NCBI GenBank assembly: GCA_012960035.1 | Contig: DUBZ01000072.1 | Span: forward strand, 1-64,000 | DNA length: 64,000 nucleotides | Source of the DNA: Myxococcales bacterium | Lineage (GTDB): Bacteria; Myxococcota_A; UBA9160; UBA4427 | Direction of reading: 5' to 3' | Shown: piece after piece, positions 3,207 to 10,586 of the stretch | Layout of the letters: each line of letters starts with the position of its first letter | Position numbering within the stretch: the first letter of the stretch is position 1 | The notes under the pieces: model-generated | Told to the model about the DNA's origin: nothing | What the model saw: only the letters and a program-made list of their open reading frames with translations | The model's database searches: none | Made by a program: the position numbers and the translations under genes

Positions 3207-4304
3207 CTACAGGTCGGCGAGCTTCACGACGCGACACCTTGGTTCGGGATGCGAATCTGCTCGAACCCAGCGGACACACATCGTCCCGTGGTGATGTCCT
3301 GCCGTGTCCATCCAGTTTTCGGTGCCGGGGTCTTCATTCGCCACAACGAGTTGCACCGAGCCATCAGCTCGAAGTGCTGCCCCGCCGCTGTTGATGTGTA
3401 CTTGGCGGAAGTCGTAGTCGAGGGACTCAGCCCAGATGTTCGCGAGCTGAAAGTTCCAGTAGTGACAATTGGGCGGAGTCATCTCGATCACCAACGCTTC
3501 GTCGGGTTCGAGCTTCCAACGGCCGAGCCAAATGCGAACGTTCGGATCACCGCCGACGAAGCGATGCTCCTCCTCGGTCGGGAGGTGAAACGTGTTAACG
3601 GATGCCTTGCTTTCGAAATCGCGCACCCAGTCGGCGAACCATTGCGCACACCCGATGGCGTACATCGCCGAGCCCATCAACGAGCCAGCTACATGCGTGG
3701 GGTCGAGAGGGGGCGGTGCTCCGGCGTGATCGATGCATTCGACTTCGATGTCGACCGGCGCTTCACGATCTTTGTGCAGGAAGGTCTGTCGCAACAAGAT
3801 CTGTTTGGTGTCGCCAGCCATGCGGAGCCAGTTGCCTGGCTCTTCGGTCTGGCTCGCGATGATCTCGAAGTTCCCGTCCGCATCCGTTTCGATTTCTGCG
3901 TCGTTGAGATGACCGGCGCCACCCGTGATCTTGTCCTTCGCGGCGAAGTTCTGGTTCGTCGCGGCGAAGCTCATGTAGTGAATGCTCCGGCGATTGCCCC
4001 GGATGCGGTACCGATAGCGCGGGTTGACCCCGGTGCTGACGTAGTAGTTGTCCGGGTTGTCGAGTCCCATTTTTACGAGTTCCGGCATGGGACGGAACTT
4101 CGGATATTCGGGCCCGGTTCTCTCCGAGAACGAAAACAGGCCTGCGCGCAGAAGTCTGCCGAGATACCGCATCCCCTCGGCGCGGTCGAAGGTCGAAAGT
4201 TCGAGGTCGTTGCGCAAAATGACATCGCCGCCCTTCTTGAGCAGGTCGCAGAAATCGTTCCACGCTTCGGCGTTGTCGATCTTGGCCACCGGATCATTCG
4301 ACAT
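3207..4304 (-). CDS. DUF1214 domain protein (copy 1)
   Basis: About 365 residues; the start at 4304 (MSNDPV) has GGGAG upstream, whereas the longer frame to 4349 does not. The N-terminal part (WNDFCDLLKKGGDVIL...DRAEGMRYLGRLL) matches the second DUF1214 protein of this window, at 8135. The C-terminal half carries the DUF1214 core (EPDEALVIEMTPPNCHYWNFQLAN, then NEDPGTENWMDT). DUF1214 proteins are often found beside steroid or lipid catabolism genes, but their reaction is not established. There is no signal peptide, so it is predicted to be cytoplasmic. It sits 62 bases after a sulfotransferase gene on the same strand and is probably co-transcribed with it. Confidence 0.85.
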   Translation of the reverse strand: MSNDPVAKIDNAEAWNDFCDLLKKGGDVILRNDLELSTFDRAEGMRYLGRLLRAGLFSFSERTGPEYPKFRPMPELVKMGLDNPDNYYVSTGVNPRYRYRIRGNRRSIHYMSFAATNQNFAAKDKITGGAGHLNDAEIETDADGNFEIIASQTEEPGNWLRMAGDTKQILLRQTFLHKDREAPVDIEVECIDHAGAPPPLDPTHVAGSLMGSAMYAIGCAQWFADWVRDFESKASVNTFHLPTEEEHRFVGGDPNVRIWLGRWKLEPDEALVIEMTPPNCHYWNFQLANIWAESLDYDFRQVHINSGGAALRADGSVQLVVANEDPGTENWMDTAGHHHGTMCVRWVRADSHPEPRCRVVKLADL

Positions 4305-4366
4305 CTGGGCTCCCTTCTTCCTTCTATTGGGATGAACGTTCCAAAACAAGTTGGGCGGTGGACGCC

Positions 4367-5530
4367 CTACCCCATTTCAATTTCAAAGCGCTCTACATAA
4401 GGCTCGAAGCGCTTGGCGACATCGTCTGCCGTGAGCCCCCAGTCGTCGAGGTTGTACTCATGCTTCCCGTGTCGCCCCTTAGGGTTGGCCTCGATGTGCG
4501 CCTTGAGTGAAGCCGCCGCGTCGTCGCCAATGGGCAAACCGAAGTGTTCGTAAATGCGTCCGACCGTGCCGAGCGAATCTCCCACAAAGTCGTCGTGGTT
4601 GACGTCGATGAAGCGTGCCGGGTCACTCTGGTCGCGCACCGCGAGGCCGCGCTCGAGGGAAGTCGCGTAGAAGTCCATGACGATTGGGCCCAGTACTTCC
4701 TTTGGCATGTCGACCTGGTCTTCCATCAACAAATGGGTCATGGAGCAAATGGAAGCCGTGCACGCCAACGGGTTGCGGTGACTCCACACGACCGAAACGT
4801 CGGGGAAGGTGTCGATCAGTTTGTCGATGGCCCACATGTGGGCGGGCGCTTTGAGGAGCCAGCGTTCGCCAGGACGCTGCCAGTCGAGCATCTGCAAAAG
4901 TATCTTGTAGTAGCTGTACATTTCGCCGAGGTCCTGATCGCGGTACCAGCTCGCGTACGGTTCGAGCATGACTTCGGTGCCGTGGTGGACGCCGTTCAAG
5001 GTGAACGCATGCAAGAGCACGCATTCTTCAGGGGTGTCCGCGCTCGCGAAATGAATTTTCGTAAACTCCGGGTTCGTTTCTCGGCTCTGTTCGTAGTAGG
5101 CCTCGATGGCGGCGTGGCGCGGATCTTTGGCGCCGGGTTCGAGCCCTTCAACGGGATCGGGAAACTGGGTTTCCCAGAGCAGCAAGGGACGTGCGTCCGG
5201 GTCGGCGCCGAGCAGGTTAAATAGCGCCGATGTTCCCGACCGCGGCATTCCCGTCAGCACCATGGGGCTCCTGACCGGACGCTGTTTAATTTCGGGATGC
5301 ACGCGCAGCGCTTCTTCGATCCGCAGTCGCGTCGCGAGCAAGCCAATGACGCGCCGATACGCCTTCTTACGTCCCTTTAGCGTGGTGTGGTTCGCGTCAT
5401 AGGTACGAACCAGGGCTTCGAGAGGTTCGCGAAAGCTGTTGGATCCAAAGTTGGAGAGCCCGGCGTTCGTGCGCGCTTCCTCGAGCATTTCGTTTGCGTC
5501 AAAGGCGATGGCGCGTGCGGCTTCGTCCAT
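4367..5530 (-). CDS. Sulfotransferase family protein (copy 1)
   Basis: 387 residues. The PAPS 5'-phosphosulfate loop is visible as LTGMPRSGTSALFNLL (about residues 92-107), and the 3'-phosphate-binding motif as VVWSHRNPLACTASIC. In this family such motifs bind PAPS and transfer sulfate to a hydroxyl or amine. The acceptor cannot be told from sequence, and some members of this clade have unproven activity. The N-terminal 80 residues are an alpha-helical extension also seen in the second copy at 9357. The likely operon is this gene followed by the DUF1214 gene. Confidence 0.85.
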   Translation of the reverse strand: MDEAARAIAFDANEMLEEARTNAGLSNFGSNSFREPLEALVRTYDANHTTLKGRKKAYRRVIGLLATRLRIEEALRVHPEIKQRPVRSPMVLTGMPRSGTSALFNLLGADPDARPLLLWETQFPDPVEGLEPGAKDPRHAAIEAYYEQSRETNPEFTKIHFASADTPEECVLLHAFTLNGVHHGTEVMLEPYASWYRDQDLGEMYSYYKILLQMLDWQRPGERWLLKAPAHMWAIDKLIDTFPDVSVVWSHRNPLACTASICSMTHLLMEDQVDMPKEVLGPIVMDFYATSLERGLAVRDQSDPARFIDVNHDDFVGDSLGTVGRIYEHFGLPIGDDAAASLKAHIEANPKGRHGKHEYNLDDWGLTADDVAKRFEPYVERFEIEMG

Positions 5531-6674: not shown

Positions 6675-7949
6675 CTATAAGGCGCCTTGATCCGAGTTGC
6701 GAGTTCGCGATGACGAGGTGCGCTTCTGTTCTTGCTCTCGCACTTTTGCCGCGCGTCCCAACTTGATTTGACGCAAAACGCCACCGAAGAACGCTTTTGG
6801 ATTTTGACGAAAAATCCGGAACACAAGTCGAAGCATGTGCTTCTTCGAGTTCGCATCCCATTCGTTTTGCCCATGACCCTGGTGGAACGGCAGGGCCTGA
6901 ACGTCCACCGGCGCCATCGGAACTGTCAGGGTCAATCTTCGATTGCGCGGCAACAAGCACGTGTCGTCGTCACACGCCTGATAGCGAATGTTGACGTCGA
7001 TTGTGGTTTCGTTGGTTTCGAGGGGGCGCATTTCCGAAAGCAAGATGGCGTTGGGGTAAACCGGGATCACAATGTCCACGACCCCACTCCAAACTTGCAG
7101 CTCAACGTCGAGCCCTTTTAGGTGGAACGTCTCGGTGGGGGGCACGATGGCTTCCTGAACAACCAGACCGTCTGGCCCATTCACTTCGACCGTCGTGGGG
7201 ATCATCCCTTCTGGAACCGGGTCGGAATAGATGTGAAGCCCTTCAGCGAGTTCGAAGCGTACTACGAGGTTGCGCATCGAGCCCTGTTTGAGCACGCCCC
7301 CCGCGCCATGAAGTGTGGCGCTCACGCGAATGCCTTCGTCCGTGAACGCGGCAGTGGGTTCATTCGGATCGAGTTGAATCCGACCGACTGCAGAGTCGAT
7401 CATGCTCTCCGGTCCGTCGCGTCGTTTGTAGGTGTCGTAGAAAAACTTGTCGGTCACGACACCCTGTTCATCGACGATATAGGTTCCCGGAAAAGGGACG
7501 CCGTACACGGGGAGGTCGCCGGGCTCAATTTCGGTGTTGAGGATGCCGTAGTCGCGAATGACGTTCGAGCCCAGATCGGAAAGCATGGGGTAAGGCATCT
7601 TGTGTGCGGTGGCGAAGTCGGCGATGGCTTCTGGGTCGTCGTATGAAATTGTGTAGAGCTTCATGCCAGCGTCGGCGAACTTCTGGTATCCGTCGCGCAG
7701 CTCAACGAGCTGCGTCATGCACGGGGGTCACCAGACCACCGAGCGAAAGAACACCACCGCGGCCTTTGCGTTGCCACGGTCTTCGTGGAACCGAACGCGC
7801 TTGCCCGTGTGGTCTGGCAAGTCGAAGTCGGGCAGCCGTTCACCAATCTTCGGTCCGGTGGGATGCCCAGCAGGCAGTCCTTTGCGCCCGGGATGTCCAA
7901 GCGGCGCTGGGGCTTCGAAGCCCGTCTCATCTGTCTCAACAAAGTCCAT
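6675..7949 (-). CDS. Redoxin / DsbD-alpha fusion, probable selenoprotein (UxxC)
   Basis: 424 codons if the TGA at 7730-7728 is read as selenocysteine. The start ATG at 7949 follows AGGAG. Residues 35-73 begin a redoxin (AhpC/TSA, thioredoxin-like) domain: PDFDLPDHTGKRVRF, then VVFFRSVVW. The next codon is TGA, then Pro-Pro-Cys77, so the active site is W-U74-P-P-C, the same place as WCPPC in relatives. The fold continues in the same frame (QLVELRDGYQKFADAG, then YTISYDDPEAIADFA and PFPGTYIVDEQG). Residues about 200-345 resemble the N-terminal periplasmic domain of DsbD, with the cysteine pair C326/C331 in YQACDDDTCLLP. The C-terminal 70 residues are basic and unassigned. No signal peptide or membrane segment is obvious. 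It lies between two DUF1214/sulfotransferase pairs and is divergent from the second. Confidence 0.8.
7696..7714 (-). promoter_or_regulatory. Candidate bacterial SECIS hairpin
   Basis: On the minus strand the coding sequence just after the in-frame TGA forms a perfect 8-bp stem (CGCAGCTC / GAGCTGCG) closed by a GTT loop. The loop starts 21 nucleotides after the TGA. Bacterial SECIS elements are known to be hairpins inside the reading frame, shortly downstream of UGA, with a small apical loop carrying an exposed G or GU; spacing and loop fit that description. The structure is seen in the sequence; SelB binding is inferred. Confidence 0.65.
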
Positions 7950-8134
7950 GTACTGCTCCTCTTAAGGGTCAAAGTCTGGAGGAGCCTGGAGTTCATCGCA
8001 ACGTTCACACTCTGGCCGTTATGTGCAGCGTCTTGGCAGCTGCGCGCAGCGTGAATGCGAGCGCGGACCCTCGTGCAAGGACGTCGCGTGGCTGTATCGT
8101 TAAGAACCCACGCCAATAGATGAAGGACGAGGCC

Positions 8135-9331
8135 ATGACCCAGTCATCGGAAGCAAACGACCAGGCGAAGAAGTTGCTGGGCGAATCGTGGCGCGACTTT
8201 TGCGACCGTCTCAAAGCGTCGGGCGAAGCGATCCTGGGTGAGGGCTTTCCCGAAGCGGCCGGCGACCGCGCCGAAGGCATGCGCTGGCTTTCGCGCTTGG
8301 TCGTGCACGCAACTCAGATGGAAGTGGAAGCCGGGGACACCCAGCACCCGTTCTTCATCCGATACGAAACTCCGCACAACCAGTGGGGCGGCCCGAACCC
8401 CGACAACGTTTACTTGCGCGCCAACATCGACCCGAGTTGTACCTATCGCATCTGGGCCAACGTAAAAGGCATGCGCCAGGCCATCTTCTCATTGAACGAA
8501 GGTGAGATGCAGTTGGGCGAATACGGCGTCTTCGGCGAATGTTCGCTCGATGAACTCGACGTCGGGCCGAACGGTGAGCTTTCCATCATCCTTTCCCCCG
8601 ACGAACAGCCGAGCAATTGGATGCAAACCGATCCGCGCGGTCGGCTGTTTACCATTCGCATCTATCAGAGTGACTGGGAACGCGACACCGCTCCGCCCTT
8701 TCACATTGAGCGCGTCGGCGCGGAGGGGATTTCGCGACCCGCCCCGACGCCGGAATTCGTGAGTCGTGCACTTGACCGCTCGGCGAACTGGATCGAAAAA
8801 ACCGCAGTTTATTGGAACGCCTATACGGAACGCGGTTGGGACCACGCGACGCCGAACGCGGTTGGCAAAGCGGGCGCGGCCAAGGGCGGCGCGGACAACA
8901 TCCTTTATGGCAGTTGTTTTTGGCAGCTTGCCCCCGAACAAGCTCTCGTGCTCGAATGCGATCGACCCGACGCCGACTATTGGGGCTTCACGATTCACAC
9001 GATGGGGTGGCTCGAAAGCGCAGACTTCGCGGACAGACAGACAAGCTTGAGTGGGCATCAAATGCACTTCGACCGCGACGATCGTATGCGCGTCGTACTC
9101 GCTCATCGCGACCCCGGCGTTCCGAACTGGATCGACATCGGCGGGCGAGAACGCGGCCTGCTGGTCTATCGCTGGGTATGGGCGCGCAACAACCCCATGC
9201 CCGAGGCGAAGGTGGTTGACATCGATGAAGTGCGGTCGTGCGTCCCGGGAGATCATCCGGTGATCGACGATGCCGCGCGCCGCAAGTCGATATCACACCG
9301 TCGTGAAGTCACGTGGAACCGGTTTTTGTAG
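8135..9331 (+). CDS. DUF1214 domain protein (copy 2)
   Basis: About 398 residues. I prefer the ATG at 8135 (MTQSSEAND), preceded by AGGACGAGG; an ATG at 8120 is in frame but poorly placed. The N-terminus (WRDFCDRLKASGEAIL...DRAEGMRWLSRLV) and the C-terminal DUF1214 core (APEQALVLECDRPDADYWGF, then HRDPGVPNWIDIGG) align well by eye with copy 1 at 3207. No signal peptide. The next gene, a sulfotransferase, starts 25 bases downstream, so the two are likely one operon. The paired occurrence of the same two families on both sides of the selenoprotein suggests they work on the same kind of substrate; what it is cannot be seen. Confidence 0.85.
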   Translation: MTQSSEANDQAKKLLGESWRDFCDRLKASGEAILGEGFPEAAGDRAEGMRWLSRLVVHATQMEVEAGDTQHPFFIRYETPHNQWGGPNPDNVYLRANIDPSCTYRIWANVKGMRQAIFSLNEGEMQLGEYGVFGECSLDELDVGPNGELSIILSPDEQPSNWMQTDPRGRLFTIRIYQSDWERDTAPPFHIERVGAEGISRPAPTPEFVSRALDRSANWIEKTAVYWNAYTERGWDHATPNAVGKAGAAKGGADNILYGSCFWQLAPEQALVLECDRPDADYWGFTIHTMGWLESADFADRQTSLSGHQMHFDRDDRMRVVLAHRDPGVPNWIDIGGRERGLLVYRWVWARNNPMPEAKVVDIDEVRSCVPGDHPVIDDAARRKSISHRREVTWNRFL

Positions 9332-9356
9332 TGGGCACTGCGGCGAGGAATGAACT

Positions 9357-10586
9357 TTGAACTGGCAACCGCCCCCGCGCCCCGAATGGGCCGCGCGCAT
9401 GATCGAGCACGGCAACGCGCTCGGGGGAGCACAGCACCTCGTTTCGCTCGACGGCGAAGACCTGATTCGTGCGGCAACGACCACGACTGGGCTCACGGAC
9501 TTTGGCGGGGAAGACTGGCGACAACACTTCGACATCTTCGTTCGCGCCCTCGAAGAAGAATCGAACCTCCACCTCGTCGGTCGCATCCTCGTGCGCACGG
9601 AAATCGTTCGTGCGCTGACGAACCGACTGAAACTCGCCGCGCTTTGGAGCGAGCGGCCCAGCATCCTTGCCGACAACGTTGAGGCGCCGGTATTTATTAT
9701 TGGAAGTCCGCGATCGGGGACTTCGATCCTCCACGAACTCATGGCCCAAGACCCGGCGAGTCGAGTGCCATTCATGTGGGAAATGAATCATCCCGTCGAA
9801 GCGCTTGCGGGCGAAGACGTCGCTGAGTCCGCGGACATGCTGCAGAAGTTCTGGCACAACCTTCAGCCCGAATACGAAACCATGCACGCGAATTCGGGCT
9901 ATCTCCCGAATGAATGCATCTTCATCACCTTGCACGAGTTTCTCTCGGATCATTGGGGCGGCAACCACAACGTCCCGAGTTACGACCGCTACCTGCAGAA
10001 GGCTGACCAGCGCCCGGCGTATCGCTACCACAAAGAGTTCTTGAAGACGTTGCAACAGCGCGGGGCAAGCAAGCGCTGGCTCCTAAAAGCGCCGAGCCAT
10101 ATTTTCCAACTCCAGGCCCTCTTTGACGTCTATCCCGACGCGCGTGTCGTCCGCACGCATCGCGACCCCCTAAAGACGCTCGCTTCATCACTGAGCCTGA
10201 TGGGCACGCTGAAATGGATGCGGTGCAACGAAGTCGACATGTCAAAGGTTCCCGGACAGCTGGCATTTGGTTACGCCTACGTGTACCAACGAGAGATGGA
10301 ACAGCGCGCGAGTGGTGCGCTTCCCGACGCGCAGTTCATCGACGTGCAGTTCGAAGACATCGTCCAAGAGCCGGTTGCGACGATCGAAGGCGTATACGCA
10401 AAACTCGGATGGCCCATCGACGATACGGTACGAACGGGCATCGGCGACTACGCGAAAAATAAACCGAAAGGGTCGCGCGGGGCGCATGCCTATTCACTCG
10501 CGGAATCGGGCCTGGACGCCGACGCCGAACGAGAGCGGTATCGCTTCTACATGGAGCGCTACGGCATCAAGGGCGAGGGAAGCTAA
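9357..10586 (+). CDS. Sulfotransferase family protein (copy 2)
   Basis: 409 residues, started at a TTG at 9357 that follows GAGGA; no ATG is available in frame nearby. The PAPS loop is FIIGSPRSGTSILHELM (about residues 113-129) and the 3'-phosphate motif is RVVRTHRDPLKTLASSL. The protein has the same long N-terminal helical part and the same C-terminal ending style (fourth helix with YxxERYG) as copy 1 at 4367. It probably transfers sulfate from PAPS, with unknown acceptor. It is the distal gene of the DUF1214-sulfotransferase pair. Confidence 0.85.
   Translation: MNWQPPPRPEWAARMIEHGNALGGAQHLVSLDGEDLIRAATTTTGLTDFGGEDWRQHFDIFVRALEEESNLHLVGRILVRTEIVRALTNRLKLAALWSERPSILADNVEAPVFIIGSPRSGTSILHELMAQDPASRVPFMWEMNHPVEALAGEDVAESADMLQKFWHNLQPEYETMHANSGYLPNECIFITLHEFLSDHWGGNHNVPSYDRYLQKADQRPAYRYHKEFLKTLQQRGASKRWLLKAPSHIFQLQALFDVYPDARVVRTHRDPLKTLASSLSLMGTLKWMRCNEVDMSKVPGQLAFGYAYVYQREMEQRASGALPDAQFIDVQFEDIVQEPVATIEGVYAKLGWPIDDTVRTGIGDYAKNKPKGSRGAHAYSLAESGLDADAERERYRFYMERYGIKGEGS

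Follow-up and report, generated by a model that had tools for sequence, protein, structure and literature searches.

The minus-strand gene at 6675..7949 of the window (the whole 64,000-nucleotide stretch of Myxococcales DNA analyzed here) most probably encodes a selenocysteine-containing cytosolic thiol oxidoreductase of 424 aa. In this reading UGA codon 74 is decoded by tRNA-Sec and SelB by way of a bSECIS hairpin, and the product consists of a redoxin domain with a UxxC active site, a DsbD-alpha-like domain and a basic C-terminal helix.

The reading frame extends over 425 codons from ATG 7949 to the TAG at 6675-6677, and its sole internal stop is the TGA at 7728..7730 (minus strand), predicted from the codon itself and its conservation in homologues to specify the selenocysteine of a W-U-P-P-C motif. 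Around this site the protein reads ...FFRSVVW-U-PPCMTQL...YQACDDDTCLLP..., and its sequence is conserved in homologues on either side of the TGA. The original prediction, that a single TGA joins two minus-strand frames with unbroken homology on both flanks, is therefore borne out. An AGGAG ribosome-binding site (7956..7960, minus strand) lies just before the ATG. Because an in-frame TAA occurs 5 codons upstream, the start is fixed at 7949 and a signal peptide further upstream is impossible; the N-terminus of the product is hydrophilic and a signal peptide is absent. Standard gene calling (table 11) splits the gene at the UGA, and because gene callers truncate the protein there, annotation readily misses a family of this kind.

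A search of 60 related genomes yielded 18 further full-length orthologues from the same genus, family or order, 47-83% identical to the window protein and each with an in-frame TGA. When the codons were read, TGA occupied the variable position of W-x-P-P-C in 19/19 sequences, the window protein included. A scan of GTDB genome contigs, seeded with two short peptides, returned at least 80 loci, and all those listed have TGA at the codon-74 position. With all loci pooled, and with a codon pattern that would have admitted TGC and TGT as readily as TGA, TGA was present in 113/113 among the matches listed (86 distinct genes) and TGC or TGT in none. The hosts among the matches listed are Myxococcota, Pseudomonadota (Halieaceae and other gammaproteobacteria, and Rhodospirillaceae), Acidimicrobiia and Planctomycetota, the last represented by one planctomycete. 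Neither a search of 379 Myxococcota, 369 gammaproteobacterial and 396 actinobacterial genomes nor the pattern scan, among the at least 80 loci listed, turned up a Cys form of the family. The expectation that relatives would have WCPPC, and that close homologues would show Cys at codon 74, thus did not hold: close relatives all have W-TGA-P-P-C. Of the homologues without the TGA, the nearest are of the Prx type and have Thr or Ser at the Sec74 place, and Cys was seen there only in remote WCPxC proteins, such as a redoxin-only protein of Rhizobium with WCPYC and 30% identity. Judged from these sequences, the family appears to be Sec-only across four phyla, in contrast to the majority of selenoprotein families, in which Cys forms are more numerous than Sec forms.

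Downstream of the UGA, the message is predicted to form the hairpin CGCAGCUC-GUU-GAGCUGCG (7696..7714, minus strand), with 8 bp and a 3-nt loop beginning with G. The hairpin starts 13 nt and its loop 21 nt past the UGA, and the folding energy is -13.6 to -18.7 kcal/mol. The published bSECIS model specifies a loop of 3-9 nt, an upper stem of 4-16 bp, an MFE of at most -7.5 and a G at loop position 1 or 2 at a distance of 16-37 nt from the UGA (PMC13188914), and the window hairpin agrees with it on every point. The loop G lies within the first two positions, at a spacing of 20-21 nt, in 83/85 sequences; some family members have 5-7 clean stem pairs rather than 8. The seven hairpin codons (+5 to +11) all fall within the 20 lowest of the 194 columns scored for synonymous entropy (hypergeometric 4e-8), Thr being encoded by ACG and Glu by GAG in 81/81 sequences, and synonymous recoding makes the hairpin weaker (mean z -2.0). 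In 3 of the first 19 sequences CAG...CTG is replaced by CAA...TTG (Gln/Leu), a synonymous double change that keeps the stem pair. As the stem is otherwise nearly invariant, covariation is thin (one pair) and the argument is carried by the codon constraint. An Rfam scan around the gene matched no family, SECIS families included.

The genome contains all of the machinery sought for selenocysteine insertion: selA, selB, selD and a tRNA-Sec, which scores 72.5 bits and is given anticodon tca by ARAGORN. The assembly is MAG-like with 6% contamination, a concern about the origin of this machinery that is answered by selB, which adjoins serS on C72, the window's own contig. Two SelD types are encoded, a SelD with its own UGA in the motif PAGGUARK (contig C32:96571-97497, locus L018) and an Ndh-SelD fusion of 768 aa that has Cys instead (contig C61:212256-213167, locus L019). 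In 10/10 other carrier genomes tested the selA family was matched, nine over the curated cut-off and one partially. Within the Myxococcota, selA is present in 33/34 carriers versus 208/345 non-carriers (Fisher 2e-6, with relatedness ignored).

The machinery, the bSECIS hairpin, the constraint on its codons and the TGA in every homologue found thus support the selenocysteine originally predicted, and the other ways of reading the codon fare poorly against the same evidence. A lone TGA in an intact frame can look the same when a Cys redoxin gene decays through a nonsense mutation or contains a sequencing error, and a MAG-like assembly with some contamination might invite that view. However, the TGA stands at the same codon in every listed locus, from many assemblies and phyla and including the cultured HTCC2080 and HTCC2143, and the protein is conserved beyond it; decay or error, the least credible reading of all, is ruled out by the TGA common to all homologous loci. 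If instead the UGA were a true stop, two products would be made, the second re-initiated at ATG 7718, four codons past the TGA, where a 347-aa ORF does begin. This Met is Trp in most relatives, the split would cut the UxxC active site, and the constraint on the hairpin codons acts on the RNA, all of which makes re-initiation highly improbable. Equally hard to credit is decoding as another amino acid, through a Trp code or plain read-through, as several orthologues use TGA as their own terminal stop, a full Sec system is present, and the UGA falls exactly at the redox-active position with the bSECIS next to it.

The redoxin / AhpC-TSA (TlpA-like) domain covers residues 35-169 (7443..7847, minus strand) and was assigned from its Pfam AhpC-TSA match over residues 35-166 (1.7e-31) and its fold; the AlphaFold model of the whole protein has a mean pLDDT of 93.7. 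WUPPC and Pro154 are invariant (81/81), the latter at the cis-Pro place as positioned by alignment, so that the domain has the TlpA/ResA-type combination of a (C/U)xxC preceded by Trp and a Pro at the cis-Pro place. Cys77 (7719..7721, minus strand), also invariant in 81/81, is the putative resolving partner of Sec74. ResA (4nmu) is among the structural matches of the domain, as are the AhpE/Bcp peroxiredoxins, with Z up to 19.4. A viral fold library gave generic Trx/GPx/Prx matches only, and a PHROGs search gave no match.

The second domain, DsbD_N with a DsbD-alpha/ScsB-like Ig fold, occupies residues 223-340 (6930..7283, minus strand; Pfam 2.1e-9). The window protein scores 37.9 bits against PF11412, whose Pfam gathering score is 25, and both Pfam domains were matched in 19/19 first orthologues, PF11412 at E up to 0.001. 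The AlphaFold model of this domain has a mean pLDDT of 93.9, and its fold matches the ScsB N-terminal domain with Z 12.6 and nDsbD with Z about 11, unrelated Ig-like rows having 8. Searched against the PDB by sequence alone, the Ig-domain profile gave no significant hit (E 0.7-1), so the domain call rests on Pfam and fold. Pfam and the confident structure models confirm the predicted fusion of a redoxin to a DsbD-alpha domain with its own Cys pair, and both cysteines are at the predicted residues. In the alignment with 1l6p, Cys326 (6972..6974, minus strand; 81/81) of YQAC-x4-C corresponds to Cys103 of E. coli nDsbD, and Cys331 (6957..6959, minus strand; 80/81, one gap) to Cys109. The pair sits in a YQAC-x4-C-x2-P motif, the nDsbD counterpart being YQGC-x5-C. 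The protein is not a whole DsbD: it has two domains only, with no export signal, transmembrane domain or C-terminal Trx domain. Its basic C-terminal helices (residues 368-423; 6681..6848, minus strand) were assigned from secondary structure, and no transmembrane stretch was seen in them.

The likeness to nDsbD and the ScsB N-terminal domain thus extends to the Ig fold, the Cys pair in YQ(G/A)C...CxxP and a partnership with Trx/TlpA-fold proteins (PMC7347389). In contrast to these, the window domain is cytosolic, without a signal peptide, belongs to a protein with no transmembrane domain, has C-x4-C rather than C-x5-C and lies behind a Sec redoxin.

By structure and by sequence alike, the redoxin domain matches peroxiredoxins best, e.g., AhpE and Bcp, and the protein could on that ground be a true Sec peroxiredoxin, a peroxide reductase with the DsbD-alpha-like domain as its built-in reductant. 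When the protein is aligned with archaeal Prx, the place of Sec74 is taken by Thr/Ser, that of Cys77 by the peroxidatic Cys and that of Pro154 by the catalytic Arg, the Prx residues being identified as is usual for this family. The window family, however, lacks the PxxxTxxC motif (PxxxT/SxxC in its broader form) and the catalytic Arg; Ser70, Sec74 and Pro154 occupy the Prx Pro, Thr and Arg places in 81/81 sequences. With the Prx Thr replaced by Sec and the Prx Arg by Pro154, the Prx site is gone and the site is of the Trx/TlpA type, and we regard a peroxiredoxin as unlikely. The same degree of doubt attaches to a purely structural or client-binding role of the DsbD-alpha-like domain, with a Cys pair that takes no part in exchange with Sec74. 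Such a role would fit its cytosolic location, the DsbD-alpha domains of known function being periplasmic; the conservation of Cys326 and Cys331 and the match of their motif to the nDsbD active site argue against it.

At somewhat less than even odds, this may be an obligately Sec-dependent family (no Cys form having been found) in which the cytosolic DsbD-alpha-like Ig domain would be the built-in dithiol reductant of the TlpA-like UxxC domain. Such a family would have a DsbD-type relay in a single soluble chain and would extend across at least four phyla. By analogy, a single-chain selenol-dithiol relay in which Cys326/Cys331 recharge Sec74/Cys77 is plausible; we infer it from the Trx/TlpA-type site and from electron transfer by nDsbD, which is known to reduce DsbC, DsbG and CcmG, all of the Trx fold (PMC7347389). 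Once UGA codon 74 has been decoded as Sec by tRNA-Sec and SelB, guided by the bSECIS hairpin just downstream, the Sec74 selenolate would reduce its substrate, either a disulfide or a (hydro)peroxide, and then bond to Cys77 as a selenylsulfide. This bond would be reopened by the dithiol of Cys326 and Cys331 in the second domain, which thioredoxin or a low-molecular thiol could in turn reduce again. The scheme would parallel the reduction of TlpA-like CcmG by nDsbD, but within one chain and with no membrane domain. Electrons may flow either from the Ig domain to the redoxin domain, or from the redoxin domain through the Ig domain to a client. In the gene neighborhoods of the GTDB loci listed, no neighbor is conserved beyond close clades, and none hints at the direction of flow, the substrate or the electron source. 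As a single soluble chain with both a selenol site and a DsbD-alpha dithiol, the protein would provide a testable model for Sec retention, and carriers among cultured strains with genomes (HTCC2080, HTCC2143 and Candidatus Litorirhabdus singularis) make such tests practical.

Prx-like UxxC selenoproteins are already known: they were described in the Sargasso and GOS surveys and, as 'Redoxin family' selenoproteins, are common in marine bacteria (PMC1088965, PMC2398784). The Prx-like thiol:disulfide oxidoreductase and 'Redoxin family' selenoproteins (PF00578, PF08534; Zhang and Gladyshev; PMC1088965, PMC2398784, PMC13188914) share with the window protein the AhpC-TSA/Redoxin domain, a UxxC at the Trx site and a bacterial SECIS. 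Going by their descriptions, the window family is set apart from them: a DsbD-alpha fusion is not named there, and they have numerous Cys homologues whereas none was found for the window family. Unknown_3 likewise combines a redoxin-type UxxC domain with an extra domain containing conserved Cys; by its description it would differ in having three conserved Cys including a CxxC, as against the C-x4-C pair, but it may be identical with the window family. TsoB, a rhodanese/DsbD fusion-like selenoprotein (NF045694, PMC13188914), also has a DsbD-like part, but its catalytic domain is another one and its Sec motif is UxxxxU, and the window protein has no reported NF045694 match. The SelL-related redox protein (NF040769) is a redoxin-fold relative that the window protein matches at 33 bits, far under the curated cut-off of 120 bits; no NCBIfam model attains its cut-off on the window protein. 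A 2026 selenoprotein inventory lists no redoxin/DsbD-alpha fusion by name (PMC13188914), nor did we find such a fusion named in the other selenoprotein family lists and libraries searched.

Several observations concern other genes. Scanning the window by codon usage for more genes with in-frame TGA was uninformative, as nothing passed the strict threshold and the present gene was missed too. Elsewhere in the genome, two further redoxin-like matches each contain one in-frame TGA (C143:855-1334; C102:15493-15912), so that it probably encodes more selenoproteins. Remote redoxins in related genomes have TGA at the same site in the motifs WUPYC/WUPFC or W-U-P-F-T (UxxT) (loci L046, L048, L049-L052) and are possibly other selenoprotein subfamilies. 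In HTCC2080 (L105), selA lies ~4 kb from the selenoprotein gene (contig C22:174122-175483 and 179489-180709). The MAG titled 'Spirochaeta sp. MED672' (L064, NZGT01000035.1) apparently represents the same genome as G015, which belongs to the window's own family; its selA coordinates are identical to those of G015, and the title therefore looks wrong. In nine loci, mostly of Halieaceae (L072, L088-L090, L094, L109, L115, L122, L129), a second redoxin frame without the N-terminal part adjoins the selenoprotein gene on the opposite strand and may represent a further gene interrupted by UGA. In the window, the selenoprotein gene is flanked on both sides by inverted look-alike gene pairs (3207-5530, minus strand, and 8120-10586, plus strand), each consisting of a DUF1214-like and a sulfotransferase-like gene, as named by eye.
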